A program made the position numbers and the translations under genes. 64,000 nt of DNA from Sphingopyxis panaciterrae (lineage in GTDB: Bacteria > Pseudomonadota > Alphaproteobacteria > Sphingomonadales > Sphingomonadaceae). The notes under the pieces are model-generated. The model saw nothing but the letters and a program-made list of their open reading frames with translations, made no database searches and was not told the origin of the DNA. The stretch spans positions 744,001 to 808,000 of the forward strand of contig NZ_JAASQN010000002.1 of NCBI RefSeq assembly GCF_011762125.1, given 5' to 3'. Shown here piece by piece: positions 1,649 to 23,736 of the stretch. The first letter of the stretch is position 1, and every line of letters starts with the position of its first letter.

Positions 1649-1668
1649 ATACGGATCGGTAAGTCAAT
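1649..1668 (-). promoter_or_regulatory. Island operator, copy 1 (upstream of flavin monooxygenase)
   Basis: The + strand reads ATACGGATCGGTAAGTCAAT, about 70 bases before the monooxygenase start. The core TACGGATCGGTAA is a near-palindrome found about ten times in this window, only in the first 24 kb and only near gene starts. The repetition is seen directly; binding by the XRE-cupin protein encoded next door is inferred. Confidence 0.6.
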
Positions 1669-1827
1669 TGATATATAGTGAGCAAATTTCCTGCTGGAAT
1701 TTTACCACCATCCGCCCGCACATGCCCCACTTAGTGCGGACCTCAGGTCGAACTTAGTGGATGGCAGCAGCTTGCGCATCTTCCGGTTCGGTAACCGGCA
1801 GATCAAAAACCGCGTCGACCCACCGGG

Positions 1828-2604
1828 TCAGGGCACGCCGGCGAAATCGTCGGAAAAGCCGACCGGCGGCGCGGTAGCGGCGAGAGACTGGCGCAATGTG
1901 GAGATCAACGGTTTCATCTCGTCCGCGCCGCGCATTAAGGGATCGATCGCGTTGAACAGCAGCACGCGCGTCGGCCCCCGCCCCTTAGCCACATAAGCGT
2001 GCGGAATTTCGCCGTTGAATAGCACACTCGCACCGACCCCGAGCTCAGCCGGCGCGCGATCTACGAAATGCATGACCAAAATACCGGACAGGACATAGCA
2101 AAGCTCGGTGCCGCTGTGGCCTCTAAGTCCGCCCGCCTCCTCGACCGTCTTGCTGCTGATATCGAAGATTACGGGCTGGATCTGATGGTTAAGCCGGCTC
2201 GTGGCGTGAGGTACGGTATAGGTGTTTCCCTGTACGTCGATCACCTCTCCTTCGCCCGGCAAGGCAATGCTGATCTGGGATTCGTGCGGCTCTGGCGGCA
2301 GCGGCGCCATCAAGCCAGCCCATGTAATCCGCAGCCCCGCCATCAGCTTCAGTACGACCGGCATGGTTGGAGCCATGCGGTTGTTCTCGATACGCGAGAG
2401 CGTCGCGGCGGGAATTCCTGTCGCCTTGCTTGCCACCGCGAGCGACATTCCCATGGCCTCACGGTGTTGCCGGATCCGCTGACCCAACCGTGCACTGACA
2501 TCATGCGCAGCCGAATCGCGGCGCCAGGCACTCCGCTCGGACGGGCCTTCGTCGGGGGCACCGCCCAAGTCGCGCTTGTTGTCGGTTTCAGCTATTGAGG
2601 ACAT
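1828..2604 (-). CDS. XRE-family transcriptional regulator with C-terminal cupin domain
   Basis: This is a PuuR-like regulator of 258 aa from the ATG at 2604. After a charged N-terminal segment comes a helix-turn-helix domain (LGQRIRQHREAMGMSLAVASKATGIPAATLSRIENNRMAP, residues roughly 40-80). A cupin_2 sensor domain follows, with GHSGTELCYVLSGILVMH and GEIPHAY. Proteins of this design usually repress amine or amino-acid catabolism genes and sense a small ligand in the cupin. An in-frame ATG at 2682 would add 26 residues; the choice is open. The island operator occurs upstream of this gene (2716-2730) and of the divergent gene (2794-2814), as expected for autoregulation. It is the only local candidate to bind the repeated element. 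Confidence 0.85.
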   Translation of the reverse strand: MSSIAETDNKRDLGGAPDEGPSERSAWRRDSAAHDVSARLGQRIRQHREAMGMSLAVASKATGIPAATLSRIENNRMAPTMPVVLKLMAGLRITWAGLMAPLPPEPHESQISIALPGEGEVIDVQGNTYTVPHATSRLNHQIQPVIFDISSKTVEEAGGLRGHSGTELCYVLSGILVMHFVDRAPAELGVGASVLFNGEIPHAYVAKGRGPTRVLLFNAIDPLMRGADEMKPLISTLRQSLAATAPPVGFSDDFAGVP

Positions 2605-2715
2605 GTTTTCGACCTTGGTATGCTTGCCGTTCACTCGAGCGGATGCGATCGGCGAGATGCCGAGCCTCTCGCTTAGCAGCATCCCCTTTCAATGACGAGA
2701 AAAATCCCCCTCCTG

Positions 2716-2730
2716 CAACGGATCGGTAGC
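2716..2730. promoter_or_regulatory. Island operator, copy 2 (upstream of XRE-cupin gene)
   Basis: CAACGGATCGGTAGC matches the repeated core at most positions but has G instead of the final A of GTAA. It lies between the divergent regulator and the nitronate-monooxygenase-like gene, so autoregulation is likely. Confidence 0.45.
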
Positions 2731-2793
2731 GCCAGCGTGGATGATACGTACATTCTACGTCGATGGCAGGGCCAAGCGAGGCGACATGGAAAC

Positions 2794-2814
2794 ATTGACT
2801 TACGTATCGGTAAT
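2794..2814 (+). promoter_or_regulatory. Island operator, copy 3 (upstream of nitronate-monooxygenase-like gene)
   Basis: Here TTGACTTAC and ATCGGTAA abut, giving the symmetrical form of the element: the GTCAA extension is on the left, unlike copy 1 where it is on the right. It ends about 55 bases before the ATG at 2870, a normal promoter position. Confidence 0.55.
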
Positions 2815-2869
2815 ATCGATATGCGCTTTTGCACGAGTCCTTGAGGCCTGCCATTCGGAGAGTCTTTTC

Positions 2870-3889
2870 ATGCCCTTGCCTTCCGTCCTGCGCGACCGCC
2901 TCCGGTTGCCGGTAATTGCTTCCCCGCTTTTTATCGTCTCCGGTCCCGACCTCGTGATCGCCCAGTGCAAGGCGGGCATCGTGGGATCTTTCCCGTCGCT
3001 GAACGCGCGGCCGGTATCGCAGCTCGACGAGTGGCTGGCACGTATCGAGGAGGAACTGGCGGCTTGGGACCGCGACCATCCCGACACGCCATCGGCACCT
3101 TTCGCGGTCAACCAGATCGTTCACAAGACGAACAATCGGCTCGAGCAGGACATCGAGCTTTGCGTGAAATACAAGGTTCCGCTGGTCATCACCTCGCTCG
3201 GTGCACGAACCGAAGTGAACGACGCGATCCATTCCTATGGCGGCCTCGTGATGCACGATGTGATCACCGATAGCTTTGCCCGCAAAGCGATCGAGAAAGG
3301 CGCCGACGGCCTGATCGCGGTCGCGGCGGGTGCCGGCGGTCATGCGGGTACGCTGTCGCCCTTCGCGCTGATCCAGGAAATTCGCGCATGGTTCGAAGGC
3401 CCGCTAGCTCTTTCGGGCTCGATCGCCTCGGGCCGCGCCATCCTCGCCGCGCAGGCGATGGGCGCCGATCTCGCCTATGTCGGCTCGGCCTTCATTGCGA
3501 CGGTGGAGGCGAATGCCGTCGATGCCTATAAGGACATGATCGTCGAAAGTTCGGCGTCTGATGTTATCTATAGCAACCTCTTCACGGGCGTGCACGGCAA
3601 CTATCTGGCGCCGTCGATCATCCACGCGGGGCTCGATCCCAAGACCCTGCCCCAAAGTGATCCCTCGAAGATGGACTTTGGCACGAGCGGCAGCGGCTTT
3701 GGGTCGGGAGGCAACCAGAGCGCCAAGGTCTGGCGCGACATCTGGGGCTGCGGCCAAGGGATCGGCGCGGTGACTGCGCGCGAGTCCGCGGGGCAATTCA
3801 TCGCGCGCCTGGCCGACGGATATTGCGAGGCCTGCGCCGAACTGGCCCCCATGGCGGAGACGGCGCTTCGCCAGCCCGCGCGGAGCTGA
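2870..3889 (+). CDS. Nitronate monooxygenase / 2-nitropropane dioxygenase-like FMN enzyme
   Basis: The 339-aa TIM-barrel flavoprotein belongs to the NPD/NMO family, which oxidises alkyl nitronates with FMN and O2. Visible family signs are the N-terminal LRLPVIASPLFIVSGP, the central GADGLIAVAAGAGGHAGT (the His-Ala-Gly FMN-side motif) and ALSGSIASGRAILAAQAMGADLAYVGSAF for phosphate binding. The ATG at 2870 follows CGGAGAG at a good distance and lies beyond the operator at 2794-2814; a frame from 2741 would run through that operator. Many family members act on substrates other than nitro compounds, so the reaction here is not certain. The SnoaL-like gene after it (4024) may be co-transcribed. 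Confidence 0.85.
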   Translation: MPLPSVLRDRLRLPVIASPLFIVSGPDLVIAQCKAGIVGSFPSLNARPVSQLDEWLARIEEELAAWDRDHPDTPSAPFAVNQIVHKTNNRLEQDIELCVKYKVPLVITSLGARTEVNDAIHSYGGLVMHDVITDSFARKAIEKGADGLIAVAAGAGGHAGTLSPFALIQEIRAWFEGPLALSGSIASGRAILAAQAMGADLAYVGSAFIATVEANAVDAYKDMIVESSASDVIYSNLFTGVHGNYLAPSIIHAGLDPKTLPQSDPSKMDFGTSGSGFGSGGNQSAKVWRDIWGCGQGIGAVTARESAGQFIARLADGYCEACAELAPMAETALRQPARS

Positions 3890-4023
3890 CGGCCGCTAGT
3901 TCGCCGCGCAATCGCCCGCCAGATGCTCGAAATTGCCGGCGGGCCGCGCGGCCGAGCCGCGTCGAATTCCGACAGGGACGCACCCGACAGCACAGCCGCA
4001 ATTCATCCCCAAGGAGAAAAATC

Positions 4024-4469
4024 ATGACAGAATCCGTCCCAGCCTTCACAGCCATGTTGCGCAGCGTGTTGGGCGATCGCGTTCGCCCGGCAGGCGACGG
4101 TTTTTGGACCTCGTCGCCGACGATATCGTGTTCGAATTCCCCTTCGCTTTCCCCGGCGGCCCCTCGCGACTTGAGGGCGCAGCGAAAATTGCCGGGCACC
4201 TCGAAAGCCTGGCGGGCATGATAACGCTCGACCGCATGAGCACGCCGATCGTCCATGAGACCAAAGATCCTGAGACGATCATCATCGAAGTCAACGGCTA
4301 TGGAGAGGGAGTGCGGACCGGCGAGCCCTACGACCAGCGCTACATCTGCGTCATCCGGACGCGCAATGGCCGCATCGTCCACTATATCGACTATTGGAAC
4401 CCACTGACATTCCTTCGCGCGCTGAAGGGATCCGCCAAGGTCGATGCGTTTCTCGAGGCTCAAGGCTGA
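4024..4469 (+). pseudogene. SnoaL/NTF2-like protein, interrupted by a frameshift
   Basis: A well-placed AAGGAG precedes the ATG at 4024, and the first 27 codons read MTESVPAFTAMLRSVLG..RPAGDGF. At the TTTTT run (4101-4105) the frame changes: the continuation LDLVADDIVFEFPFAFPGGPSR, then a long NTF2-like domain ending DAFLEAQG, is in the next frame. One extra T would restore one protein of about 148 aa. So this is either a recent one-base loss or a homopolymer sequencing error. The intact protein would be a small cone-shaped-fold protein like limonene-epoxide hydrolase, ketosteroid isomerase or polyketide cyclase, all of which bind small hydrophobic molecules. Function unknown. Confidence 0.7.
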
Positions 4470-4612: not shown

Positions 4613-6835
4613 TTAGAACCCGGCGCGCAATTCGATGCCGTAGGTTCGTGGTTCGTCGGCTGAAAGCACCGTCCCCAGACCCTGGGCTTGCAGCGCCGTC
4701 GTGTAAAATTCGTTGAGCAGGTTGCGCCCCCATAGCGATACCGTGACCGCGTCGGACAATGGATAGGAAATACGGGCGTTGGCGATGTGATAGGCCTTCT
4801 GCCGCATATAATTGTCCGCCTCTGTGAAATAGCCGTCGTTGTAGCTGTAGGTCAGGTTCAGACGGACATCCCGATCGGCGGAGACCGGGAGAGCATAATC
4901 GAGCCCCACCGTGGCAGTAAGCCCCGGGGTGCGAGGCAGATCATTGCCCGTCGCCGATCCGGTGACGACGCTGTTGCCTCCCGCCGGGAGCGGACTGGCG
5001 AGATTGGCGTCGGGAAACGACGTATACTCGCCCTTCAGATATTCGGCCGCCACCGACAGACGGAGCCGATCCGTTACCAGCGCCTCAAAATCGAGATCGA
5101 CGCCGTACATTTCGGCCGCCGCCGCGTTCCGCGGGGTCTGGACGCCCAGCACGGCAACGCTGAGCTGGATATCCTTGAAGTCGTAATAGAAGCCCGACAG
5201 GTTCAGCTTGATGCGATTGCCGAAGAAATTGCTCTTCAGGCCCGCTTCGAGAGCATCAAGCACTTCGGGGCGAACCGGCGAGGTCTCGTTGGGCAATTGG
5301 GCGCCATTGAACCCGCCACTCTTGAAACCGCGGTTATAGCTCGCGAAGAGCATGACATCCTTCGCGATGTCGTAATCGACCGCGGCGCGCCAGGTGAGGC
5401 GCTGATAGTCGATGCGGCCAGGTGCGGGCGGGACCATGACCACGACCGACCCGTCGTTGAAGAACTGCGAGCGCATGGCGTCGAGCGTACGGTTTTCCCA
5501 CGTGTAGCGCAGGCCCCCGGTTATCCGCAACGCGGGCGCGACCGACCAGGTCGCCTGCCCGTAAAGCGAATAGGAGTTGGTGACCTGACGCGACTGTACT
5601 TGCTGAAGCCGCCGCGTCGGTACGATCGTTCCCGCCTGCGCGTTGAGCTGATCGCCCTTGTTGTAATAATAATAAGCGCCCGCGGTCCATTGCAGGCCGT
5701 CGCGCACGCCGCCGACAAGCTGCAGTTCCTGACTGAACTGCTTCTCCGCATTATGTCCGTCGAAATAGAGATAGGACTCCGGCGTCACGTCGCTGTCGAG
5801 AAGCAGATCGTAGCTGCCCTTGCGGAAAGCCGAGATCGAGACGAGATCGGCGAATGACAGATTTTGCTCGACCTTGAGCGACAGCCCGCCGGCGCGCGAT
5901 CGGAATGACGGATCGACATTAGCGTTGATATCATAGTCGCCCCCCGGAAACGGACGATTCCCATCTCGCGCGGGAGGAAGGCCGTCGACGGGCCGATAGG
6001 CCGTACCGATCGAGGATTCGGTCCAGCCGTAATCGCCAGCGAGCGCCATCCGCAGCGAATCATTCGGCGTCCAAAGCCATTTGCTGCGAAGGACGGCGAA
6101 ATCGCTCTGGTTGACGTCGGCGCCGGTCGCAACGTTCGTGCCCCAGCCCTCGTTCTGGCGTCGATAGGACATCGCAAGATCACCAGCGAGGCCCTCCGCG
6201 ATCCCGCCCGTGACATATCCGCTTGCCGTTACGGTATCGTAGTTCGCGAGCCCGACGGCAAAGTTCATCGCCGGCGCATCGCTCGGGTCGCGCGTTATGA
6301 TCTGCACGAGACCGCCTGTCGCATTGCGTCCGAAAAGCGTGCCCTGCGGCCCCTTCAGAACCTCGACCCTTTCGATGTTGTCGAGCGAAGTCAGCGACGC
6401 CGATTTGATGCCCTGGTAGACGCCGTCGACATAGGTGGCCACCGAGTTTTCGACGCCCGGACCGTTGATCGTCGAGCCAACCCCCCGCAGAAAGGGGGAG
6501 CCGAGACCGACGCCCTGCGTCAAGACGAAGCCCGGGGTTACGACCGCCAGATCGGACGTCCGCAAGATCCCCGCATTTGCAAGTTGCTCCCCGGTAAACG
6601 CGGAAATGACGATGGGGACGCTCTGAAGTCGCTCGCGCCGGCGCTGCGCGGTAACGACGATTTCCTCAAGCCCGCCTCCGGCTTCGATCGCTTCGCCGAT
6701 CTCCGGCTGCGCCGAATCGGGCTCCTGTGCCAATGCGGCTGCGGGCTGCGCGTCCTGCGACGAGGTCTCGGTCTGCGCGACCGCAAGCGATGGATATCCG
6801 TAGGTGAGCAAGAGCACGGTGGTCAAAAGCCGCAT
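4613..6835 (-). CDS. TonB-dependent outer membrane receptor
   Basis: The 740-aa protein starts with a signal peptide (MRLLTTVLLLTYGYPSLAVAQ). The segment EEIVVTAQRR, typical of sphingomonad receptors, follows, then a plug domain (VPIVISAFTGEQL, FLRGVGS, VEVLKGPQGTLFGRNATGG) and a 22-strand barrel ending in a terminal Phe. Such receptors import a ligand across the outer membrane using TonB energy. The start at 6835 keeps the signal peptide and has GGACG upstream. It lies 249 bases after the secreted cupin gene and in line with hyuAB, so it may be the last gene of that operon. The ligand is unknown; siderophore use is not implied. Confidence 0.9.
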   Translation of the reverse strand: MRLLTTVLLLTYGYPSLAVAQTETSSQDAQPAAALAQEPDSAQPEIGEAIEAGGGLEEIVVTAQRRRERLQSVPIVISAFTGEQLANAGILRTSDLAVVTPGFVLTQGVGLGSPFLRGVGSTINGPGVENSVATYVDGVYQGIKSASLTSLDNIERVEVLKGPQGTLFGRNATGGLVQIITRDPSDAPAMNFAVGLANYDTVTASGYVTGGIAEGLAGDLAMSYRRQNEGWGTNVATGADVNQSDFAVLRSKWLWTPNDSLRMALAGDYGWTESSIGTAYRPVDGLPPARDGNRPFPGGDYDINANVDPSFRSRAGGLSLKVEQNLSFADLVSISAFRKGSYDLLLDSDVTPESYLYFDGHNAEKQFSQELQLVGGVRDGLQWTAGAYYYYNKGDQLNAQAGTIVPTRRLQQVQSRQVTNSYSLYGQATWSVAPALRITGGLRYTWENRTLDAMRSQFFNDGSVVVMVPPAPGRIDYQRLTWRAAVDYDIAKDVMLFASYNRGFKSGGFNGAQLPNETSPVRPEVLDALEAGLKSNFFGNRIKLNLSGFYYDFKDIQLSVAVLGVQTPRNAAAAEMYGVDLDFEALVTDRLRLSVAAEYLKGEYTSFPDANLASPLPAGGNSVVTGSATGNDLPRTPGLTATVGLDYALPVSADRDVRLNLTYSYNDGYFTEADNYMRQKAYHIANARISYPLSDAVTVSLWGRNLLNEFYTTALQAQGLGTVLSADEPRTYGIELRAGF

Positions 6836-7083
6836 GTGATTTCGTCCTAGATTTGGCGTCCAGCGTGGACGCGGTTTTGCAGAAGATCGTCGCGGTCGAC
6901 CGGCACAAGGCGCAGGTCCCACGAAGGCACCCAAGGTGCTTTCAATCCGAAAAAATGTTGGTTGGAGACGGCGGTTACGCCGCCAGGACCGGGAGGTGCC
7001 GTCGTGCGGTCAGCTGGCATAGTTCCCGCAAGCCCAGCGCCTTCCTCTCGCCGCTGCCCGCTGCGCGACCAGCCCGGCCTTCT

Positions 7084-7947
7084 CTAGGCCCTGCCGGCCT
7101 CGAAGCAGATCAAACTACCCGGCGAAGTGGCCTCGATCAGCAGAGGCGCTGCACCTTTGGGACGGTAAATGAAGTCGGGGCTGGCCGCGGCAGCCCGGCC
7201 GCTTCCGGTCTCGACGAGATAGGTTCCGGATTCGACCCAGCAGATCTCGTCGCCAGGCGCCGCGCGCGCTGTCCGCCGGCTTCCCTTCTCGAACACGAAA
7301 TTCGTCACGCTGGCGTGCTGCGACCCGTCCTTTTCCGCCGACAGCAGTTCTCGGCGAGTCACGCCGCCGCTGCAATCGTCGCATGGACGGCCCGGCACAT
7401 TGTTCAGGTTGAAGAACCGAACGTGCGGACGCGATCCTTCGCTACCTTTCCACTGGCCGACCTGCTCGGGAGGGAGCCGATGCGACCACTGGTCCGCGCG
7501 TGCCGGGGCAAAGGCGCAGACCGTGACCGAGTCCTTGGTGGCGTGAATATTCTCGGTCGCGGCGGACGCGGGCCGCCACATGAGATAGCCCTGCCGCGCG
7601 ATCACTCTGATGCCGCTGCTTTCCATGTCGATTTCCCCACTGGGAAAGTAGCAAAGCTCGTCCTTGTTATAGGCATAGGGCTTATCCGTCCCGACGCCGG
7701 TCGCGTATACATTGTAGCCGATGTCGAGCCCCGTAGAGCCGTCGCGAACGGACGAAACAACACGACGGTGGACAGCGCGTCCCGAAGCCTGGTCCGCGTC
7801 TCCTGCCCGTACGGTCGGTTCGACCTCGGCAGGCCTGATCACGCGAACCGCGCGGTCGCCGGGGCTACCGGCGGGCGAAGCTGAGACTTCGGTTGCGATG
7901 TTTGCCGACAGCAGTGCCAACGGGATAAAAGCAATCCGCAAATACAT
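7084..7947 (-). CDS. Secreted double-cupin protein resembling EutQ-type cupins
   Basis: The 287-aa protein has an N-terminal signal peptide (MYLRIAFIPLALLSANIATEVSA). Two cupin-like units follow. The first reads KDELCYFPSGEIDMESSGIRVIARQGYLMWRPA and the second GDEICWVESGTYLVETGSG, both similar to the barrel of ethanolamine-utilisation EutQ-type cupins. A periplasmic location is expected from the signal peptide. The gene is 91 bases downstream of the SDR and probably belongs to the hyuA-hyuB-SDR transcript. Its role could be ligand binding or a metal-dependent reaction; few of the usual cupin histidines are obvious, so catalysis is uncertain. Confidence 0.6.
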   Translation of the reverse strand: MYLRIAFIPLALLSANIATEVSASPAGSPGDRAVRVIRPAEVEPTVRAGDADQASGRAVHRRVVSSVRDGSTGLDIGYNVYATGVGTDKPYAYNKDELCYFPSGEIDMESSGIRVIARQGYLMWRPASAATENIHATKDSVTVCAFAPARADQWSHRLPPEQVGQWKGSEGSRPHVRFFNLNNVPGRPCDDCSGGVTRRELLSAEKDGSQHASVTNFVFEKGSRRTARAAPGDEICWVESGTYLVETGSGRAAAASPDFIYRPKGAAPLLIEATSPGSLICFEAGRA

Positions 7948-8038
7948 GTCATATCCTCCCTTTTTTTTCCGATTGGTTCACGTCGAGGGACCGAATGCGC
8001 TCCCGCCCTCGCAACCGCTGACTCCGAACGTCTGGGTC

Positions 8039-8797
8039 TCAGGCACACCAGCCGTCATCAACGAGCATGATTAGACCGTGGACACCTTTGGCATCATCAC
8101 TGGCAAGGAACGCGACCGCGCCGACCATGTCCTCGGGATCCATGAATGCCCGGCCGGTCGGCGTGCGGCTGCTCATCAGTGCGACATAATCCTCGTGCCC
8201 GGGGCCCCGCAGATGTGCGTTGATCGGCGTCGCGACATTGCCTGGCGCAATGGCGTTGACGTTGATGCCCTCGCTCGCCAGCTCCGAAGCCAGCGCCTTG
8301 GTAAGGAGCGAAACGCCGCCCTTGGAAGCACAATATGCAGGGCAATTGGGAAAGGCATCGACCCCGGCGATCGACGAGAGGTTGATGATCTTTCCGCTCC
8401 CCCGTTTGCGGAACCAGGGCAAGACCGACTGCACCGCGAAGAATGTGCCCTTGAGGTTGAGATCGATTTGCGCGTCCCAGATCTCCTCGGTCGTATCGGC
8501 GACCGGAACGGTGAGAAAGGTACCGGCATTGTTCACCAGGATGTCGATGCGGCCGTATGCGTCGCCGACCTCATCGACAAAGCGCCGGATATCGGCCACT
8601 TTCGAGCAATCGCCGCGAAACGCCTTCGCCGTTCCGCCCGCCGTCTCGATGTCGGTGACGACCTTCTCGGCCGCCACATCGTTGCGGCTGTAGTTGACGG
8701 CGACTGTCGCCCCCTCCTTCGCCAGCCGCTTCGCGATCGCTTCGCCGATGCCCTGCGATCCGCCCGTTACGATCGCTATCTTGCTGTCCAGTCTCAT
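8039..8797 (-). CDS. Short-chain dehydrogenase/reductase (FabG-like)
   Basis: This classical SDR has 252 aa. The NAD(P) site is TGGSQGIGEA near residue 10, followed by NNAG near 90 and an active-site Ser with YCASK near 155. It ends VDDGW. ATG codons lie at 8800 and 8797 behind TAGGGAGC; the second has the more usual spacing. It follows hyuB by 13 bases and so belongs to the same transcript. In this setting it would oxidise or reduce a hydroxyl/keto group on the island's substrate. The exact substrate is not readable. Confidence 0.9.
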   Translation of the reverse strand: MRLDSKIAIVTGGSQGIGEAIAKRLAKEGATVAVNYSRNDVAAEKVVTDIETAGGTAKAFRGDCSKVADIRRFVDEVGDAYGRIDILVNNAGTFLTVPVADTTEEIWDAQIDLNLKGTFFAVQSVLPWFRKRGSGKIINLSSIAGVDAFPNCPAYCASKGGVSLLTKALASELASEGINVNAIAPGNVATPINAHLRGPGHEDYVALMSSRTPTGRAFMDPEDMVGAVAFLASDDAKGVHGLIMLVDDGWCA

Positions 8798-8810
8798 CAT
8801 GCGCTCCCTA

Positions 8811-15340: not shown

Positions 15341-16768
15341 ATGCTCAAGGATATTTACCCGCTCTATCTCAACAATCGGGCGCAGCAGCCCAACGCCGAC
15401 CTCGAGGTGACCGATAAATATACCGGCGCGGTAGCCTTTCGCGTGGCACAAGCCGACGCCGGCATCATCGACGAGGCGATTGCGGGCGCCGTCCGCGCGG
15501 CCGAGCCTATGGCAAGACTGGCAAGCTATGAGCGGCAAGCCGTGCTCGACCATTGCGTCAGGCGTTTTCGCGAACGTTTCGACGAGCTCGCCTACGCTCT
15601 TTGCGTCGAAGCAGGCAAACCCATTAAAGACGCGGAGGGCGAGGTGTCGCGTCTGATCGACACTTTCCGCATCGCCGCCGAAGAAGCGATGCGCATGTAT
15701 GGCGAAGTACAGCCGCTCGACATCAGCCCACGCGCGAAGGGCTATCAGGGGATGTGGAGACGCGTGCCGATCGGGCCCTGCTCCTTCATCTCCCCGTTCA
15801 ACTTCCCCCTCAACCTTGCCGCACACAAGATCGCGCCGGCGATCGCGGTCGGCTGCCCGTTCGTGATGAAGCCGGCAAGCCATACGCCGCTTGGAGCAAT
15901 CATCATCGGCGAGGTGCTCGCCGAAACGGACCTGCCCGTAGGCGCCTTTTCTATCTTACCCGCGCATCGCGACGGCGCCGACCTCTTCACAGAGGATGAC
16001 CGGCTGAAACTCCTCTCCTTCACTGGTTCTCCCGATGTCGGCTGGGCCTTGAAAGCGAAGTCCGGCAAGAAAAAGGTCGTGCTTGAGCTCGGCGGGAATG
16101 CCGCAGTGATCGTCGATCGGGACGCAGACCTCGACGATGCGCTCGAACGCATCGTCTTCGGCGCCTTCTACCAGTCAGGCCAGAGTTGCATCGGCGTCCA
16201 GCGCATCCTGATCCACGATACACTCTATGACCGCTTCCGAGGTATGCTCGTCGCGAGAACCGAGAGCCTCGTGCCGGGCGACCCGAAGGATCGCAGCACG
16301 GTCATCGGGCCCATGATCTCCGAAAGCGAAGCATCCAGGCTCGAAGAGTGGATCGGGCAAGCGGTCGCGAGCGGCGCCACACTTTTGTGTGGCGGCAGGC
16401 GCGAGGGCGCCATGCTCGAGGCAACACTACTGGAGAATGTTCCCCGCTCGGCCGCCGCCTATACCGAGGAAGCGTTCGGCCCGCTCGCGCTGCTTTCCAG
16501 ATTCTCGGACTTCGGCGCAGCGCTGGAAGAGGTTAACGACAGCAAATTCGGGTTGCAGGCAGGCATCTTCACCCGCGACCTGTTCAAGATGTTCGACGCC
16601 TGGGACCGGCTCGACGTCGGCGGCGTTGTCGTCAACGATGTGCCCTCATACCGCGTCGACAACATGCCTTATGGCGGCGTCAAGGATTCGGGTCTGGGCC
16701 GCGAAGGCATCCGCTTCGCGATGGAGGATATGACCGAGATCCGGAATCTCGTGATCAGGCGAGACTGA
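15341..16768 (+). CDS. NAD(P)-dependent aldehyde dehydrogenase
   Basis: The 475-aa protein belongs to the ALDH superfamily. It shows FISPFNFPLNLAAHKIAPA and KPASHTPLGA (cofactor site), FTGSPDVGW, the general base in VLELGGNAA, and the catalytic Cys in YQSGQSCIGVQR near residue 285. It is the third gene of the kinase/phospho-lyase operon, 31 bases after the phospho-lyase stop. Its expected role is to oxidise the aldehyde released by that enzyme to a carboxylic acid. The exact aldehyde is not known. Confidence 0.9.
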   Translation: MLKDIYPLYLNNRAQQPNADLEVTDKYTGAVAFRVAQADAGIIDEAIAGAVRAAEPMARLASYERQAVLDHCVRRFRERFDELAYALCVEAGKPIKDAEGEVSRLIDTFRIAAEEAMRMYGEVQPLDISPRAKGYQGMWRRVPIGPCSFISPFNFPLNLAAHKIAPAIAVGCPFVMKPASHTPLGAIIIGEVLAETDLPVGAFSILPAHRDGADLFTEDDRLKLLSFTGSPDVGWALKAKSGKKKVVLELGGNAAVIVDRDADLDDALERIVFGAFYQSGQSCIGVQRILIHDTLYDRFRGMLVARTESLVPGDPKDRSTVIGPMISESEASRLEEWIGQAVASGATLLCGGRREGAMLEATLLENVPRSAAAYTEEAFGPLALLSRFSDFGAALEEVNDSKFGLQAGIFTRDLFKMFDAWDRLDVGGVVVNDVPSYRVDNMPYGGVKDSGLGREGIRFAMEDMTEIRNLVIRRD

Positions 16769-16789: not shown

Positions 16790-17413
16790 TCAATGCACCG
16801 CATCGCCGAGGCCATGATCGCGCATCGCGCGCTGGACGGCTGGACGCGCCACGACACGCTCCATCCACGCATTGAGGCGCGGATATTCGATCTCGGGATC
16901 AAAGCCTTCAAACAGATGGATCGAGCCCCGAACCATGACCAGCAGATAGAGATCGGCGATCGTCAGCCGATTGCCGACAAGGAAATGCGACGTTTCCAGC
17001 GCCTTTTCGCTAGGCTCGAACCGTTCGATGACGCGGGTCCGTACCGCCAGTTTCGCGGTTTCATCGATATCCCAGAACAGCAAGGTCGCGAGCTTGTGCT
17101 GCTCGGACGCGAAAAAGACCATCCATTCGGTGATACGCATATGGTCTTCGCTATGGGCGGGCGCGGTCAGGCGCAATTGCGGATCCTGCGCGGCGAGCCA
17201 GTCGAGGATGACGGCCGTCTCGGTCAGGATCGATCCATCGTCCCGTTCAAGGACGGGCATGCAGTTTTTCGGATTGATCTGCGACAGCAGGAGGCCGTTC
17301 GGCATGCGCCGGCTCTCCATATCCATCGGCACGAGTTCGAGGGTCCGGTCCGTCTCATAAGCAAGGATCAGAACGGCGAGCGACGCCATGGGCGGTGCCC
17401 AGTAAAGCTTCAT
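16790..17413 (-). CDS. Glutathione S-transferase family protein
   Basis: The 207-aa protein has an N-terminal thioredoxin-fold domain (MKLYWAPPMASLAVLILAYE; NPKNCMPVLERDDGSILTETAVILDWLA, with the cis-Pro and the ESXA-like TETAVI segment). An all-helical C-terminal domain follows, with FLVGNRLTIADLYLLVMV. The ATG at 17413 follows TGAGGA. It converges on the ALDH gene and lies 39 bases downstream of the MFS gene, with which it is probably co-transcribed. It could conjugate or isomerise a reactive pathway product; detoxification is the broader alternative. Confidence 0.85.
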   Translation of the reverse strand: MKLYWAPPMASLAVLILAYETDRTLELVPMDMESRRMPNGLLLSQINPKNCMPVLERDDGSILTETAVILDWLAAQDPQLRLTAPAHSEDHMRITEWMVFFASEQHKLATLLFWDIDETAKLAVRTRVIERFEPSEKALETSHFLVGNRLTIADLYLLVMVRGSIHLFEGFDPEIEYPRLNAWMERVVARPAVQRAMRDHGLGDAVH

Positions 17414-17452
17414 GGATGATGTCCTCAAATGAGGATCGTGCCTTTCGGCCGA

Positions 17453-18796
17453 TCAATTCTCGATCAGTCTGGAAAACTGCTTTCGCGCCCGCATCCACAG
17501 CAGCACGGCGACCGGGCCCGCCACCAGTGCGACGCTCGCCATCGACCAGCCGACCATCGCGTCATCCCCGAAGAAATTATCGGTGATCACCGCGACGACG
17601 ACGGGCCCCACGGCATATCCCAGAACGGATATGGTCAGCAGATAGGCTGCATAGACCTGCCCGCGCATTTCATTGGGTATGACAATCGGGAGCGCAGCGG
17701 GCGCGAGCGCGATGGCAGAGGCGAAACCGAACACCGCCACGGCAGACAGCAGCAAGGACGCCGTAACGTCAGGCACCACCGGGGCCAGCGCAGCAGGAAT
17801 GAAGGCGAGCAATGTGCAGCCAAGCGCAACGATGATAGACGCGTCGCGGCGCCCTGCAGCGGCAAGGCGATTGGCAACCCATCCCGACGCGACGAGGCCC
17901 GAAATGCCCCCGATCAGCACCGCGAGACCATAGCCAAGTCCCGCTTCGCCCGGGGTAAGTCCGTAAGCCCGGTTCAGATAGGTCGGCATCCATGCAAGGG
18001 TCGACAGCAGGGCGAGCGCACTAGCTGCCGATGCGCAGAATTGCGGAATGAGGAACGGGCTCTTTTCCCGGAGCAATCCGATCGTGGCGCTTATCGGGAC
18101 GGTCCGGACGTCGCCCTCGACGAGGCGGCCGCGACGAGGCGGTTCTTTCACGAACAGGAAGGCTGCCGCGACGGCCAGTCCCGGAAGGCCCGCGACAAAG
18201 AAGGACGCCTGCCATGCGTGGATTTCGCCGAACAGCGGAACGGTGACTCGGCCAAGCCGGCTAACATAATCGACGATCGAGCCGCCAAAGATCAGCGCCA
18301 GTCCGCTTCCCGCAGAACCGCCGATCGAATAGAGCGTGATCGGGAGCGACAGGCGCGAGGAAGGAAAATAATCCGCGATCATCGAATGCGCCGCGGGGGA
18401 AATTCCGGCCTCGCCGATGCCCACTCCCATCCGCGCGAGAAACAGCTGGGTAAAATTTCCCGATACGCCGCATAAGGCGGTCATCAAGCTCCAGGCCGCA
18501 ACGCTGACCCCGGCAATCATGCGGCGGCTGTAGCGGTCGATCAACCATCCCATGGGAAGGCCCACGATGACATAAAGCATCGTGAAAGCCAGCCCGTGGA
18601 GGAGGCTGATCTGGGTGTCCGAGAGCAGGAAATCCGCCTTCAGCGGCCCCACGAGCAACGTCAGGATCATTCGGTCGATCATGGCAAAGGTAAAGGCGAC
18701 AATCAGCAACGCGACGACGCCCCATGCATAGGCCTCGCTTCGCCATGCGAAGTCGGAGACTTTACCTTCCACTGCCGCTTGCTTGCTGTCTTCCAT
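17453..18796 (-). CDS. MFS transporter (spinster-like family)
   Basis: The 447-aa inner-membrane protein has about twelve hydrophobic helices. The first is VVALLIVAFTFAMIDRMIL, and the MFS loop motif GWLIDRYSRRMIAG follows helix 2. RMGVGIGEAGISPAAHSMIADYFP in helix 4-5 is the pattern of the spinster/phthalate-permease-like group common in sphingomonad catabolic clusters. It sits between the TonB receptor and GST gene, all leftward. It probably moves the island's substrate or an intermediate across the inner membrane. No operator copy is seen right in front of it. Confidence 0.85.
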   Translation of the reverse strand: MEDSKQAAVEGKVSDFAWRSEAYAWGVVALLIVAFTFAMIDRMILTLLVGPLKADFLLSDTQISLLHGLAFTMLYVIVGLPMGWLIDRYSRRMIAGVSVAAWSLMTALCGVSGNFTQLFLARMGVGIGEAGISPAAHSMIADYFPSSRLSLPITLYSIGGSAGSGLALIFGGSIVDYVSRLGRVTVPLFGEIHAWQASFFVAGLPGLAVAAAFLFVKEPPRRGRLVEGDVRTVPISATIGLLREKSPFLIPQFCASAASALALLSTLAWMPTYLNRAYGLTPGEAGLGYGLAVLIGGISGLVASGWVANRLAAAGRRDASIIVALGCTLLAFIPAALAPVVPDVTASLLLSAVAVFGFASAIALAPAALPIVIPNEMRGQVYAAYLLTISVLGYAVGPVVVAVITDNFFGDDAMVGWSMASVALVAGPVAVLLWMRARKQFSRLIEN

Positions 18797-18896: not shown

Positions 18897-20969
18897 TCAG
18901 AACCGAACGGTGACCGATCCGACGATCAATCTCGGCTGGCCGCGGCGTGCGATCAGATCGGGATCGAATGGCTGAAGTTCGGTATGATATTTTTCGTTCA
19001 GCAGGTTATCGGCGCGGACAGCCAATTCCCATTTGTCGTCGACGGCACCTATCGCGATCCGTCCGCCGACGACATCGTAGGATTCCTGGCGCAGCGTGTT
19101 GGTCGTATTCCAGAAGAAACCCGAATTATGGGCCGCGTCCGCGCGCAGTGACAGCTTCAGGGCGGACGAAATATCGGTCGTGTAGTCGATGCTCGCACCG
19201 CCCGAGAAGCGCGGAGCATAGGGAACCCTGAAACCGTCGAACAGGCCCGCGGTGAATTTCGAATTCATATAGCCGCCGTTGGCGTTCAACGAGAGCTCGC
19301 GCGTGGGACGCAAGGTGAAGGAGAATTCCGCGCCCCAGGTACGCGCATCCCCGACATTACCGATCGCTTCGTTGGGAACACCGCTGTCGTCGAGGACAAG
19401 CGTCTCCAACTGTCGGTTTTTGCTCTCGATATAAAAGCCGGCAACTTCGTAGGACAGAAAGCCGCCATCGGTTTGCCCCTTGGCACCAAGTTCGAAGTTC
19501 CGCGCTTTTTCGGCCTTGTAGGGAAGGATCGACGTTTCGCCGAACAAGGTGAACCGCGCGGGCTCATAGCCTTCGGACGCGTTGAAATACAGCATCAGCG
19601 CCGGATCGACCTTGTAGGACAGCGTCAGCTTCGGCAAAACCACCGTGTCCTTCACATGCGCGCTGTCATCGATCACGCGATTGAGGCCAAAGAAGTCGCT
19701 GTGGTTGAGCCGCGCGCCGAGCGCGACCTCGAAGGCCCCCGACTTATAGGAGATATTGGCAAAACCGGCGTAGGTTTTCTCGACACTTTTGTTGTTGCTG
19801 AAATCGAACACGGTGGAGGGCCCGCCAAAATCGACGCCGAAGACCGCATCGGCAACGAGCGTGAGGCCGCGGTCGCGAACACGCGAATAATAGCCGCCAA
19901 CCAGCCAGTTGAAGCCTTCGCTATTGTCCGACTGCAGCCGGACCTCCTGCGTGAAGACGCGGGTCTTGATTGGGTCGCGCTGCGCGACGTACAGGCCGTC
20001 GAGCGCGCTATAGTCGAGGTCCCAAAGGATGCGGTTTCTGCGCTCGGTATAGGAGGTCAGCGAAGTCAGTGACAGATCGCCGATCTGCTGCTCGATGTTC
20101 AGGATGGTTCCGAAAATGCGGCGATGATTGTAGATATTCTGGTCGAGATCGGATTCGCCCCGGTACGACGTGTCGTTAGGGGTGATGTAATAGTCGTTGC
20201 CGCCATTGTTCAGATAGCTGTAGCGCACGCTGAGATTGATGTCGGTCATATCCGAGGGCATGAAGCGCAGCGCGCCGCGAAAGCCATATTCCTCGGACTT
20301 GTCGTTGTTGATCCGCGTGACCGGGTTTTTCATGAATCCATCGCCGGTATCGGCATAGCCCGAGACCCGGATCGCAAACATATCCGAGAGCGGCACATTA
20401 ACCGAAGCATTCACATTCAGGATGGATTGCTCGCCGACCTCACCCGAAATGCGCCCCTCGAATTTATCCGAGGGCTTTTTGGTGACATATTTCACCGCGC
20501 CGCCGATCGAGCTGCCGCCGTAGAGCGTGCCCTGCGGGCCCTTCAGAATTTCGACGCGCTCAAGGTCGATGATGCGGCTGGCCTGGTCGGTGAAATTCTG
20601 CACGTCATCGATGTAGAAACCGATGCCCTGAACATTGCCAAAGGAGCCGACGCCGCGGATCACAACATTCGGCTCATTGTCGCCGCGGCGGTTCAGCACG
20701 ATGTTCGGCACCGCCTGCCCCAGCTTGTCGAGATTGCCGATTCCGGCCTTTTGTAGCGAGGCGTCCGAGAAAGCAGAAATCGTCTCCGGAACGTCAATCA
20801 TGCGCTCGTTGCGCTTTCGCGCCGTGACGACGATATCGCCACCCTGACGATCTGTGGAATCTTCTGCTGCAGCCGCACCGCTATCCTGAGCGAATGCTGG
20901 CATAGGGATAGACGACAGCGTCGCGAGGATGGAGCCTGCCAGCAGCCCTAATTTCGAAGAACCCGTCAT
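18897..20969 (-). CDS. TonB-dependent outer membrane receptor
   Basis: The 690-aa protein has a signal peptide (MTGSSKLGLLAGSILATLSSIPMPAFAQ). The plug region reads GGDIVVTARKRNERMIDVPETISAF, VVIRGVGSFGN and VEILKGPQGTLYGGSSIGGAVKYV. A barrel domain follows and ends VTVRF with a terminal Phe. The ATG at 20969 has AAGGGGATC upstream and begins the signal peptide. Two operator copies (21029-21071) precede it, so it responds with the rest of the island. It probably brings the island's growth substrate through the outer membrane. Confidence 0.9.
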   Translation of the reverse strand: MTGSSKLGLLAGSILATLSSIPMPAFAQDSGAAAAEDSTDRQGGDIVVTARKRNERMIDVPETISAFSDASLQKAGIGNLDKLGQAVPNIVLNRRGDNEPNVVIRGVGSFGNVQGIGFYIDDVQNFTDQASRIIDLERVEILKGPQGTLYGGSSIGGAVKYVTKKPSDKFEGRISGEVGEQSILNVNASVNVPLSDMFAIRVSGYADTGDGFMKNPVTRINNDKSEEYGFRGALRFMPSDMTDINLSVRYSYLNNGGNDYYITPNDTSYRGESDLDQNIYNHRRIFGTILNIEQQIGDLSLTSLTSYTERRNRILWDLDYSALDGLYVAQRDPIKTRVFTQEVRLQSDNSEGFNWLVGGYYSRVRDRGLTLVADAVFGVDFGGPSTVFDFSNNKSVEKTYAGFANISYKSGAFEVALGARLNHSDFFGLNRVIDDSAHVKDTVVLPKLTLSYKVDPALMLYFNASEGYEPARFTLFGETSILPYKAEKARNFELGAKGQTDGGFLSYEVAGFYIESKNRQLETLVLDDSGVPNEAIGNVGDARTWGAEFSFTLRPTRELSLNANGGYMNSKFTAGLFDGFRVPYAPRFSGGASIDYTTDISSALKLSLRADAAHNSGFFWNTTNTLRQESYDVVGGRIAIGAVDDKWELAVRADNLLNEKYHTELQPFDPDLIARRGQPRLIVGSVTVRF

Positions 20970-21028
20970 CTTGATCCCCTTATCCTTCGTTCCGGTGTAT
21001 AAATCTCTGCATCTCGTCACCGGCCTGT

Positions 21029-21071
21029 TTCCGATCCGTAACAATTAGCCCTTACGGTTCGGTAAGTCAAT
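21029..21071 (-). promoter_or_regulatory. Tandem island operators, copies 7 and 8 (upstream of TonB receptor)
   Basis: TTTCCGATCCGTAAC (21028-21042) and TTACGGTTCGGTAAGTCAAT (21052-21071) are about 23 bases apart, 60-100 bases before the receptor start. Arrangement and spacing resemble the pair in front of hyuA. Confidence 0.6.
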
Positions 21072-21173: not shown

Positions 21174-22301
21174 TCAATCGCGCGTCGGGTCGATCAGGAA
21201 CTTCTGGCCCGTTGCCTTCAGCAAATAGGCTTGGAGGATGTCGGGCTGCAGCGCTTCGCCAAGCCCGATGGTTCGTGAATAGGTGCTGGCGAATGTCGTA
21301 GTGAGTTCGGCCACGACGCGCTGACGGAGCCGGTCCTCCACGTCTCGCCCGGCGCCTCTCAGGAACGTCCAGAGAAGCCAACCCGAGACACGCCATTGCC
21401 AGCCGAAGGCTAGGCAGTTGAGCCTCGTCGGCGCGGCGTTCAGGACACCATAAATGTACAGCTGCTTGAAGCTGTCCGAACCATAGCGTTCAAATCGGGT
21501 CATGCGCCGCGTCGCGGCCCGCTCCATGGCCTGCAGGATCATGCTGCCCAGTGCCCCGCCGCCCACCGAATCAAATGCGACGGTCGCGCCCGTTTCGGCA
21601 ATTAGATCGACGAGGCGGCCCGAAAAGCCCTCTTCCTCGCTATTGAGGATATGGGTCGCCCCGATATTTCTGAGGATTTCAACCTGTGCCGGAGAGCGCA
21701 CGATGTTAATGAGCGGGACGCCATCGGTGAGGCATATCTTCTGCAGCATCTGGCCAAGGTTCGAGGCGGCTGCGGTGTGGACGATCGCCTTATGACCTTC
21801 GCGGCGGGCCGTCTCGACGAAGCCAAGCGCAGTGAGCGGGTTGATGAACATCGAGGCGCCATCGACCGCAGACACGCCATCGGGGAGCTCAAGCACATCG
21901 GGGCGGCCAATACGCCGATAGTCGGCGTACATGCCGCCACCGATCATGCCGACCCGCTTGCCGAGAAGCGCAGTCGCGTTCCGGCCCGCGGCGACGACGG
22001 TGCCGGCGCCCTCATTGCCCACCGGAAGCGAATCCCCCAGCCGCCCCCTCACCCCGGCGAGCCGGGCCGTCGGGACATGAAATGTCAACGCCGGCTTTCC
22101 GGGAGTGCCGACTTCGGAAATCGAGGAAAGGTCTGCCGGTCCGAGGAGCAGGCCGAGGTCGCTGGGATTGATCGGTGCGGCCTCAACGCGGACGATGACT
22201 TCATCATCCCCCGGATCCGCGATCGTGACCGTTTCGAGCGAGAGAGTCAGTGTACCATTCTCGTCGATCCACGACCGCATCTCGCGCCCTGTCATGGCCA
22301 T
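21174..22301 (-). CDS. Zinc-type alcohol dehydrogenase / quinone oxidoreductase-like MDR protein
   Basis: This 375-aa medium-chain dehydrogenase/reductase has a GroES-like N-terminal domain (VIVRVEAAPINPSDLGLLLGP, VGNEGAGTVVAAG). The Rossmann domain shows IVHTAAASNLGQMLQKIC and AFDSVGGGALGSMILQAM. Zinc-ligand cysteines are not obvious, which favours the quinone oxidoreductase/enoyl reductase side of the family. GGAGG stands before the ATG at 22301. It lies 136 bases downstream of the hydrolase gene on the same strand, so it is probably the second gene of that operon. Confidence 0.85.
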   Translation of the reverse strand: MAMTGREMRSWIDENGTLTLSLETVTIADPGDDEVIVRVEAAPINPSDLGLLLGPADLSSISEVGTPGKPALTFHVPTARLAGVRGRLGDSLPVGNEGAGTVVAAGRNATALLGKRVGMIGGGMYADYRRIGRPDVLELPDGVSAVDGASMFINPLTALGFVETARREGHKAIVHTAAASNLGQMLQKICLTDGVPLINIVRSPAQVEILRNIGATHILNSEEEGFSGRLVDLIAETGATVAFDSVGGGALGSMILQAMERAATRRMTRFERYGSDSFKQLYIYGVLNAAPTRLNCLAFGWQWRVSGWLLWTFLRGAGRDVEDRLRQRVVAELTTTFASTYSRTIGLGEALQPDILQAYLLKATGQKFLIDPTRD

Positions 22302-22436
22302 ATTCGTTTCCTCCGCTAGTGCCGATGCTTCGCTCCGCTGGATCGCAGGCGCGCGTTCCGAAAATCTGCGATGCCGAGCACACGACAGAGCGATAGACAT
22401 CTGCTCCGTCGTGAGCGGGGTGATCGCTCGCTCTAG

Positions 22437-23630
22437 TCAGGTCTGAACAAGACCGAGCTTATCCGCGATCCAGTCACAGATATATTCCTGGCCGAGGGTC
22501 GGATTGTCCATCTGGCAGTGCGCAGCGCCGGTCTCTTCGGGAGTGAAGAGCTTATACGTCACGTCCACGCCTTTCGACCTGGCATAGTTGACGCTGTCCT
22601 CGGCGATGCTGGCGCCCAGAAAATCCTGTTCGCCATGGACAACCAGATAGGGACAGCGAATTTTGTCGATGACCCCCTCCAGCTTGAAATTCTTGAGCTT
22701 CTCGATCGTTTCGTCCCAGTTTTTGCCCCCCACCAGCCACATGAGCTGCCGTACGTTCAATGAGTCGGGATTGTTTTTTTCGAACGCCCGCAGGAAATCC
22801 TCTTCGGACAATCGGTTCCAGATCGCGCCGTCGCTGACAACGCAGGCGATCCGATGCTCGAAACTGGCTGCACGCGGGGCGTAAAAGCCGCCGAGGCTGG
22901 CACCATAAAGTGCGATACGCGCGCTATCGACGTCGCCGCGCGAGAGTAGATAATCGACGCAGGCACCGACCGGCTTTTCCGTTTCCACGCGAGCATGAAG
23001 CTGTCGGCGGCGGAGACTTCCACCCTGGCCGGGCAGGTCCACTAGCAGCAGCGAGAGGCCGCGCGTAAAGGCGTGCCGCGGCATTTCGTGCAGCAATTCA
23101 TCCTTATACTCGTCCGCCCCGCCAAAGCAGATGACGACGGGATAGGGCGCCACGGCGTCAGGCGCTCGCACGAAATAGGCGTCGAGATAGGAGTCTTCGA
23201 ACGGGATCTGCAGGACCTCACCGGCAGGCTTCATCAGCCGCAGAAAATGATGCGAGGAGTCTTCCACCTTGTCGAAAGCCGTGAGGCGTCGCGGATCGCT
23301 ATGCTCCATGAAATATTCGGCCGCCCGGTAATAGTTCGCTGCGCGCAGAAAATTCCCGCGAGCAGTCTCGGGATGACCTGCACCGAGAGCCTCTTCCGCG
23401 CGCGCCCGGCTCACATCGCCCATCCGGATCCACTCGACGTACCAGCTTTCGTCATCGCCGGGTTCAATCCGCGAGCCGACAAGGAAAGCCTCGCCCACGG
23501 TGCACGCGCCCTCATAGGCGCTAGCGAGCACACGGATGAAATTGAAGGATTTCTCGCTATGCTCCGGCCAGTGCAGCCACCCTTCCGGGCCATAGGCACC
23601 TGCATGAGCCTTTGTTTGAGAACCGGTCAA
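22437..23630 (-). CDS. Alpha/beta hydrolase, FrsA/2,6-dihydroxypseudooxynicotine-hydrolase-like
   Basis: The 397-aa enzyme has a helical N-terminal domain (RGNFLRAANYYRAAEYFM) and an alpha/beta-hydrolase core. The nucleophile is in GASLGG, the acid probably in VVHGEQDFLG, and the His in TGAAHCQMDNP. This layout matches C-C bond hydrolases such as 2,6-dihydroxypseudooxynicotine hydrolase, as well as FrsA-type esterases. I chose the TTG at 23630 because AAAGGAAACAAG sits directly before it. The ATG at 23684 has no comparable site and lies almost in the operator at 23689. The TTG start is an inference. Confidence 0.75.
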   Translation of the reverse strand: MTGSQTKAHAGAYGPEGWLHWPEHSEKSFNFIRVLASAYEGACTVGEAFLVGSRIEPGDDESWYVEWIRMGDVSRARAEEALGAGHPETARGNFLRAANYYRAAEYFMEHSDPRRLTAFDKVEDSSHHFLRLMKPAGEVLQIPFEDSYLDAYFVRAPDAVAPYPVVICFGGADEYKDELLHEMPRHAFTRGLSLLLVDLPGQGGSLRRRQLHARVETEKPVGACVDYLLSRGDVDSARIALYGASLGGFYAPRAASFEHRIACVVSDGAIWNRLSEEDFLRAFEKNNPDSLNVRQLMWLVGGKNWDETIEKLKNFKLEGVIDKIRCPYLVVHGEQDFLGASIAEDSVNYARSKGVDVTYKLFTPEETGAAHCQMDNPTLGQEYICDWIADKLGLVQT

Positions 23631-23688
23631 CTTGTTTCCTTTCCTATGAATTGCGATATGCCAAGGCACATACTTGATCCGCATCGTG

Positions 23689-23736
23689 ATACCGATCCGT
23701 AATATCAGCGCTGCTTCATACCGATCCGTAAGTCAA
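23689..23736 (-). promoter_or_regulatory. Tandem island operators, copies 9 and 10 (upstream of hydrolase)
   Basis: ATACCGATCCGTAA occurs twice exactly (23689-23702 and 23718-23731), the second extended by GTCAA. They are 29 bases apart and 60-100 bases before the TTG start, the cleanest repeat of the element. Confidence 0.65.

Follow-up and report, generated by a model that had tools for sequence, protein, structure and literature searches.

Here we followed up a repeated near-palindromic sequence in 64,000 nucleotides of the genome of Sphingopyxis panaciterrae (contig NZ_JAASQN010000002.1, positions 744,001 to 808,000 of the forward strand; this whole stretch is called the window and is numbered from its first letter). 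According to the sequence analyses, this repeat is very probably the operator bound by an XRE-cupin protein whose gene lies at 1828..2682 and which would act as the local repressor of a catabolic island. The island measures about 30 kb (29.7 kb) and holds about 20 genes, eight promoters and 13 intergenic operators. The first-pass annotation of this DNA had proposed that one operator joins a flavin monooxygenase, an NMO-like enzyme, HyuAB, a kinase/phospho-lyase/aldehyde dehydrogenase set, a TonB receptor and a hydrolase, and our sequence comparisons support that these operons share it; the set was under-listed, however, as it reaches about 6 kb beyond the window start. The additional members bring the TonB receptors to three in all and include two MFS transporters, a glutathione transferase (GST), two EutQ-like cupins, a SnoaL-like protein and an AMP-ligase.

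According to the model that we favour, a dimer of the regulator would bind the lopsided palindrome nTACGGWTCGGTAA, in or beside the -35 and -10 elements of the eight promoters, and block RNA polymerase. The cupin domain would take up a nutrient or a pathway intermediate, upon which the repressor would be released and about 20 uptake and breakdown genes would come on together. Uptake would involve the three TonB receptors and the two MFS transporters, and breakdown the flavin monooxygenase, the HyuAB-type lactamase, the kinase/phospho-lyase/aldehyde dehydrogenase set, the FrsA-like hydrolase, the dehydrogenases and the AMP-ligase, while the regulator would restrain its own synthesis through a weaker site. 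We infer DNA binding, repression, the inducer and the operon groupings, these last being read from gene order. The sites themselves, their positions, their conservation and their recurrence beside related XRE-cupin genes are direct observations on the sequence.

The operator is palindromic with an asymmetric centre (consensus as above, family core TTAC-N6-GTAA), carrying TTACCGA on one half and usually nTACGGA/T on the other. About ten copies had been claimed in the window, and pattern search located all ten, a few bases off at most, with their 14-mers starting at 1649, 2716, 2800, 12683, 12704, 12904, 21028, 21052, 23689 and 23718; the position 2794 listed earlier is approximately the start of a fused TTGAC (2795), the palindrome itself starting at 2800. 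These ten were real and the list was incomplete, three more intergenic sites having been overlooked: one at 1781 (TTCCGGTTCGGTAA, kept in the relative described below) and a pair at -2009 and -1983 (C2:741991 and 742017 of the genome), about 2 kb upstream of the window and before a TonB receptor. The claim that the copies stand in front of gene starts held for 13 of 13 sites with start codons chosen by eye with the help of the ribosome site (under the longest open frames, 2800 and 21028 fall inside genes), and with these starts the noncoding share of the island that contains all 13 is 7.4%. A weight matrix run over 48 kb returned 14 matches, 13 of them intergenic. This matrix was trained on sites that it later recovered; trained on the relative alone, it still scored all 13 sites here between 15.2 and 22.5. 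The fourteenth match, at 1270 within the LLM monooxygenase gene, was rejected as a likely operator, being a coding match that may be due to chance in a stretch that the relative does not have. As had also been noted earlier, no copy lies later in the window, the part from 24 to 64 kb giving no weight-matrix match. A three-mismatch block at 21125, unchanged in the relative, may be a further weak site.

Had the motif been scattered at random across the genome, the proposal of a regulon would have failed, and this is not what we found. When up to three mismatches to TACSGATCSGTAA were allowed, the window gave 66 matches against 40.6 expected, a number reached in none of 100 shuffles, and all ten places were included. 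With at most one mismatch, the whole 4.84-Mb genome gave 22 matches, 21 of which lie within 26 kb (C2:741991-767731, window -2009 to 23731) and collapse to 11 separate places, since ten were hit on both strands. The sole match outside this cluster, at C2:906702, is an unlikely operator given its position inside a thiolase gene, and it was rejected. The reversed pattern, used as a control at the same stringency, matched seven times genome-wide. The same one-mismatch search over 60 genomes of the genus found matches in 59, and the 58 genomes other than this one and the relative had 0-15 each among the matches listed, so that clustering, rather than the match count alone, is what sets this genome apart. 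Exact TACGGWTCGGTAW occurred 15 times in 80 genomes of the genus, seven times here and twice in the relative, always in the island, and as six singles in six other genomes; its reversed control occurred 12 times, never in this genome. That the sites are a dispersed repeat or an artefact of promoter composition has one point in its favour, namely that every TTGAC is a promoter element and promoters alone therefore share some sequence, yet the tandem arrangement of the palindromes, their retention within diverged DNA and the rarity of the motif outside the island, with no more than a single one-mismatch copy in the rest of the genome, already contradict it, and we give it practically no credence.

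The retention of the sites was seen in a metagenome-assembled genome (MAG) of another Sphingopyxis (G059, contig JAIXHQ010000005.1; 87% complete), which also has the island and whose XRE-cupin is 85% identical to that of the window. In the stretches compared, nucleotide homology to the MAG spans from -5961, at the AMP-ligase stop, to 23752, just beyond the outermost operator. Since homology stops beside the outermost pair of operators, the island has nearly the same extent as the regulon. Eleven operators have counterparts at matching places in the MAG, where the surrounding intergenic DNA has diverged and the operators stand out as conserved islands in the alignments; nine of the 11 counterparts have equal or fewer mismatches, and 14 of the 17 one-mismatch matches of the MAG lie in the island, the other three being on another contig. 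The MAG has two gaps, which could partly reflect its assembly: it is without -4416..1396 (one TonB receptor, an MFS transporter, one EutQ-like cupin and most of the LLM gene) and without about 4691..8029 (TonB receptor B and the other EutQ-like cupin). At one junction in the MAG (L048-L050) the first 60-80 codons of the LLM gene are fused to the AMP-ligase region. A close ortholog of the XRE-cupin occurred in two of 60 genomes of the genus, this one and the MAG, all others being at most 38% identical. Among 397 genomes of the family this genome alone passed E 1e-30 (G059 did not appear in that sample, in which the best six candidates or fewer per genome were scored), and a scan of an 84,980-species collection, of a kind that detects close relatives only, returned the MAG contig only. 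There was no substantial copy of the island on plasmids, the 10 records that matched covering at most 4% of the query.

The position of the operators relative to the promoters bears on the sense of the regulation. They lie within the core promoters of neighbouring enzyme and transport genes at the eight promoters, with a TTGAC -35 box fused to the operator at six of them and lying upstream in that of the kinase (by eye). In the LLM monooxygenase promoter the operators are at 1649..1662, fused to TTGAC on the minus strand, and at 1781..1794 (weight-matrix score 20.2); the regulator gene is preceded by a weak operator at 2716..2729 (CAACGGATCGGTAG, identical in both genomes; score 15.7); and the NMO/FabK-like promoter has its operator at 2800..2813, identical in the relative, with TTGAC fused at 2795-2799. 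The HyuA promoter carries an inner operator at 12683..12696 and an outer one, TTGAC-fused, at 12704..12717, an arrangement found again for TonB receptor C (inner 21028..21041; outer 21052..21065, TTGAC-fused) and for the FrsA-like hydrolase (inner 23689..23702; outer 23718..23731, TTGAC-fused). The putative kinase promoter, recognised by eye at 12877..12905 on the plus strand, would combine a -35 box TTGACT (12877-12882), a 17-base spacer and a -10 box GATAGT (12900-12905), the end of which is overlapped by the operator of the kinase/phospho-lyase/aldehyde dehydrogenase operon (12904..12917); this promoter is aligned in the relative and retained there as TTGACT/GATAAT. The GTCAA previously taken as an extension of the operator is the reverse complement of TTGAC, and at all six sites that carry it TTGAC points to the downstream gene, whatever the orientation of the operator. 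Its one-sidedness, its constant -35 orientation and the separation of the kinase TTGACT from its operator speak against its belonging to the operator, and we rejected that reading; most likely it is the -35 box.

The operators thus overlie or directly adjoin the sequences that RNA polymerase probably contacts, which is where a repressor would be expected to bind. An alternative is that the XRE-cupin binds these sites and activates, or both activates and represses. NceR, which is called an XRE-cupin in PMC12724383, is a reported activator in the family, and some of the sites overlap the -35 region; the operators lie, on the other hand, in the -35/-10 spacer or across the start site, and in P. 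aeruginosa every XRE-cupin whose regulon has been determined is an inhibitor according to PMC7901475. We therefore hold activation to be improbable, and repression the better account of these positions.

The regulator (284 aa, minus strand) has the architecture of XRE-cupin repressors, with an N-terminal XRE helix-turn-helix at about residues 65-122 (Pfam HTH_3, 8e-11) and a C-terminal cupin at 186-242 (Cupin_2, 5.5e-12), whose H189, E193 and H228 are conserved across the aligned Sphingopyxis XRE-cupins. Among the scanned proteins of the conserved block it is the only recognised DNA-binding regulator, so that the earlier statement that the set contains no other regulator holds for these proteins, and its own upstream region does contain a copy, the site at 2716, which points to possible autoregulation. 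A two-component system lies beyond the conserved block, on its left side. The assignment of the operator to this protein is supported, at the level of sequence, by their joint conservation in a second Sphingopyxis, by the lack of any other recognised regulator in the block and by the occurrence of the same core beside XRE-cupin genes of Burkholderia and Phyllobacterium.

These last cases came from 72,556 plasmid records, among which the hydrolase has four relatives at E<=1e-80, 53-56% identical, all of which we examined. Plasmid pla_2 of B. arboris (L135) encodes HyuA, HyuB, the kinase, the phospho-lyase, the hydrolase, a short-chain dehydrogenase (SDR) and an XRE-cupin within 34 kb; in B. arboris pla_1 (L139) and Phyllobacterium sp. 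628 (L140) the hydrolase adjoins an XRE-cupin and the stretch has no HyuAB; and Variovorax paradoxus VAI-C (L141) combines HyuAB, the kinase, the phospho-lyase and the hydrolase, gave no XRE-cupin match and has a GntR gene separating HyuA from the hydrolase side. The XRE-cupins near the hydrolase in the first three are 35-39% identical to that of the window. Exact TTAC-N6-GTAA occurred three times in L139 (0.017 expected, shuffle maximum 1), twice before the hydrolase and once just before the XRE gene, and the first of these sites (L139:17601) is the reverse complement of the window site 2800 over all 14 bases. L135 had two exact sites (0.03 expected, shuffle maximum 1). One precedes the hydrolase; the other stands some 320 bases in front of the XRE gene and immediately ahead of a divergent open frame, and one-mismatch sites lie closer to the XRE gene. 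A repeat search of this locus did not have the operator among the 20 repeat families listed. L140 also had two (0.12 expected, shuffle maximum 2), one of which lies between the XRE gene and the hydrolase, with a one-mismatch site just before the hydrolase. Exact sites thus precede the XRE genes of L139 and L140, as the own-gene site does here, and the operator core spans three genera. One-mismatch counts alone do not exceed shuffles at the plasmid loci, and the supporting loci are not independent, since the Phyllobacterium regulator shares 56-57% identity with both B. arboris regulators, which come from a single strain. As controls we took 29 other XRE-cupin loci with 1.5 kb on either side (102 kb), comprising eight on plasmids (eight of 12 XRE-cupin plasmid records without the hydrolase, four near-duplicates being left out), 18 in other Sphingopyxis, many of them near-identical orthologs, and three in this genome; they contained no exact TTAC-N6-GTAA and eight one-mismatch matches. 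PxATxSRIE is common to the helix-turn-helix of all four regulators that go with the operator, where the eight plasmid controls have STxSK[IV]E and the 18 aligned other Sphingopyxis proteins STxSKIE. Upstream of the other Sphingopyxis XRE-cupins we found other repeats and no TTAC-N6-GTAA. In three of these cases (L035, L040, L042) there is a near-identical 35-base inverted repeat with 15-base arms starting TACGGAATTGGCATA, perhaps the own operator of those three proteins.

Several observations weigh against the assignment of the operator to this regulator or against its role as a repressor. The regulator's own gene is preceded by the weakest operator of the set; the close tandem spacings of 21, 24, 26 and 29 bases show no fixed helical phase; clear -10 boxes were seen, by eye, at only some promoters; and two of the 11 MAG counterparts have drifted, with 2 and 3 mismatches to TTACSGATCSGTAA against 1 and 2 here, the second being the counterpart of the outer HyuA operator. 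In L140 the other exact site lies inside an unrelated coding gene and one shuffle equals the two sites of that locus, and the Variovorax locus, with its GntR gene, has one exact site (0.05 expected) inside the phospho-lyase coding sequence, so that the argument from the plasmid loci rests on position. To these must be added the family activator NceR and, lastly, the fact that a TetR gene in other Sphingopyxis begins with the similar TTGACTTACCGATCGGTAG, similar palindromes hence not being exclusive to XRE-cupins.

This last point, together with TACCGATCGGTA-like palindromes that other Sphingopyxis carry at the TetR gene and at further loci, favours the view that the sites are bound by a TetR-family or other repressor whose gene lies elsewhere and that the XRE-cupin gene is merely one of its targets. 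However, a search of the two genomes that carry the island found no homolog of that TetR at E<=1e-10, and there is no TetR match inside the conserved block of either. All 50 TetR matches of this genome were scanned over 1.2 kb on each side and gave one operator match above threshold, which is at the level of chance (0.6 expected by shuffling) and by eye falls in an upstream coding region, and none was found around the eight of 12 TetR matches scanned in the relative; no TetR gene was found within the regulon or carrying the operator. A TetR gene lies about 14 kb away in the Phyllobacterium stretch, while the operator core occurs beside XRE-cupin genes both there and in the Burkholderia stretches, which are unannotated and were not searched for TetR. 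Taken together, a regulator from elsewhere appears quite unlikely, and the XRE-cupin remains the preferred binder of the sites. The TetR gene in question (L066:3996-4664, G006) lies beside a Rieske oxygenase and a TonB receptor and has at its start TTGACTTACCGATCGGTAG, a similar -35-fused operator belonging to a different family of regulators; a 98% identical TetR occurs at G014:C1:388683. TACCGATCGGTA-like sites were observed at a GST/CoA-transferase locus of two Sphingopyxis genomes (L051:12670 and 12821 in G059; L067:4085 in G051), and in G006 an isochorismatase-family gene is preceded by two TACCGATCGGTA palindromes spaced by 23 bases (L064:3996-4032), with the same arrangement in G014 (L065:4071-4107).

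The genes probably follow their promoters in this manner. The upstream pair (-2009/-1983) precedes a TonB receptor and then the AMP-ligase. The promoter with 1649 and 1781 leads to the NtaA/DmoA-family FMN monooxygenase (LLM; 253..1578, minus strand; TIGR03860, 506 bits against a cut-off of 280; nearest PDB entry MoxC/YtnJ; ATG set by eye with a ribosome site), followed by an MFS gene and a EutQ-like cupin, and site 2800 to the NMO/FabK-like flavoprotein (2870..3889, plus; Pfam NMO, 5e-19) and a SnoaL-like protein probably in the same operon (3933..4469, plus; SnoaL_2, 1e-10). The HyuA promoter would serve, on the minus strand, HyuA (10532..12616), the ATP-dependent lactamase/hydantoinase-type subunit HyuB (8811..10535; Pfam, 2.5e-116), a Pfam-assigned SDR (8039..8896), a EutQ-like cupin (7084..7947; weak Cupin_3 match at E 0.03, below the cut-off; probable signal peptide by eye) and TonB receptor B (4613..6934; Pfam, longest open frame). 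Site 12904 precedes, on the plus strand, an APH-fold small-molecule kinase (12927..13973; Pfam APH, 4e-24), a phospho-lyase-like pyridoxal phosphate (PLP) enzyme (13861..15309) and an aldehyde dehydrogenase (15254..16768; Pfam, 2e-135). On the minus strand again, the pair at 21028 and 21052 precedes TonB receptor C (18897..21044; Pfam, longest open frame, likely start near 20971), an MFS transporter (17453..18796; Pfam) and a GST (16790..17428; GST_C, 1e-13), and the pair at 23689 and 23718 the FrsA-like alpha/beta hydrolase (22437..23684; Pfam FrsA-like, 1e-9; likely TTG start near 23633) and a zinc/quinone-type alcohol dehydrogenase (21174..22400; Pfam). An open frame at 16793-17419 on the plus strand was rejected as a gene, the likely real gene being the GST on the opposite strand. 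The two EutQ-like cupins (7084-7947 and L023:14055-14795) look similar by eye, one having the probable signal peptide. To the left of the island (L023:245-7276) is a large autotransporter-like protein of 2343 aa with PATR repeats. In the MAG a tRNA-Cys gene (L048:9517-9590) lies about 430 bases from the end of homology at 23752, a possible insertion point of a mobile island.

As to the pathway, the closest solved relatives of the PLP enzyme are phospho-lyases (PDB 5g4i, 6e-112, and the ethanolamine-phosphate phospho-lyase 6tor, 6e-106), with scores of 378 and 358 bits, the best-scoring other enzyme reaching 174. This likeness, together with the neighbouring APH-fold kinase and aldehyde dehydrogenase, suggests a route in which an amino alcohol would first be phosphorylated and then converted by elimination to an aldehyde, which would be oxidised. 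HyuAB shows similarity to ATP-dependent lactamases; the solved structures similar to the hydrolase include an acylaminoacyl peptidase (SMU_737, 3fnb, 2e-19) and a hydrolase of a nicotine pathway (2,6-dihydroxypseudooxynicotine hydrolase, 2jbw, 3e-18). Our guess is a substrate that is an amide or lactam carrying an amino-alcohol unit, which would use all these enzymes. Searches of the open-licence literature, judged from titles and the beginnings of abstracts, gave, among the titles listed, no paper matching such a cluster or pathway and, for the operator letters, none on a regulator of such a site.

On balance we lean, with some reservation, towards a wider reading, in which a distinct XRE-cupin subfamily (PxATxSRIE, TTAC-N6-GTAA) travels across alpha- and betaproteobacteria with an undescribed catabolic pathway, represented by the FrsA-like hydrolase and, in part of the loci, by HyuAB, the kinase and the phospho-lyase, and in Sphingopyxis has brought an entire transferable island of 30 kb, three TonB receptors included, under the control of a single repressor, island and regulon being about the same. 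The regulator-operator pair, readable in three genera of two classes, is a candidate inducible-promoter system for sphingomonads, and the compound lifting repression should be the pathway substrate or an early product, providing a handle on the pathway.

The comparison with known systems places these results among the XRE-cupin repressors. In P. aeruginosa such proteins are described, in PMC7901475, as local, specialised repressors acting at palindromic sites in core promoters, mostly with one or two targets, the exception being PauR with 29 genes at 12 places. PauR resembles the present regulator, by the same account, in being an XRE-cupin repressor of a multi-operon catabolic regulon with palindromic core-promoter sites and a site before its own gene; its targets are scattered over the chromosome, whereas here all lie in one 30-kb island. 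Our results hence suggest an XRE-cupin with a large local regulon, where those studied in P. aeruginosa, scattered PauR excepted, have one or two neighbouring targets. DbuR of Pseudomonas putida, according to PMC12724383, is likewise an XRE-cupin repressor, with a footprint over the -10 that contains a palindrome, but it controls one operon and its palindrome, AATTCTCATATATTAGAATT, the one XRE-cupin operator with which we compared TTAC-N6-GTAA, is unlike this core. E. coli PuuR is the best NCBIfam match of the regulator, at 34.1 bits, far below the PuuR cut-off of 211. For HyuA and HyuB the best NCBIfam models are the alpha and beta subunits of the caprolactamase CapAB, which they match with 554.9 and 240.5 bits, below cut-offs of 1000, and here a kinase and a phospho-lyase accompany them, in difference to CapAB (caprolactam is treated in PMC6061476 and PMC8453981, to judge from titles and the beginnings of abstracts). 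The clusters of B. arboris pla_2 and Variovorax VAI-C are alike in uniting HyuA, HyuB, kinase, phospho-lyase, FrsA-like hydrolase and SDR in one stretch, but the stretches fetched contain no TonB receptor homolog at E<=1e-12, and Variovorax has a GntR gene where the island has the XRE-cupin. The system thus fits the known class of XRE-cupin repressors and is distinct in the size of a wholly local regulon, in an operator core found across three genera and in a pathway for which our searches met no description.

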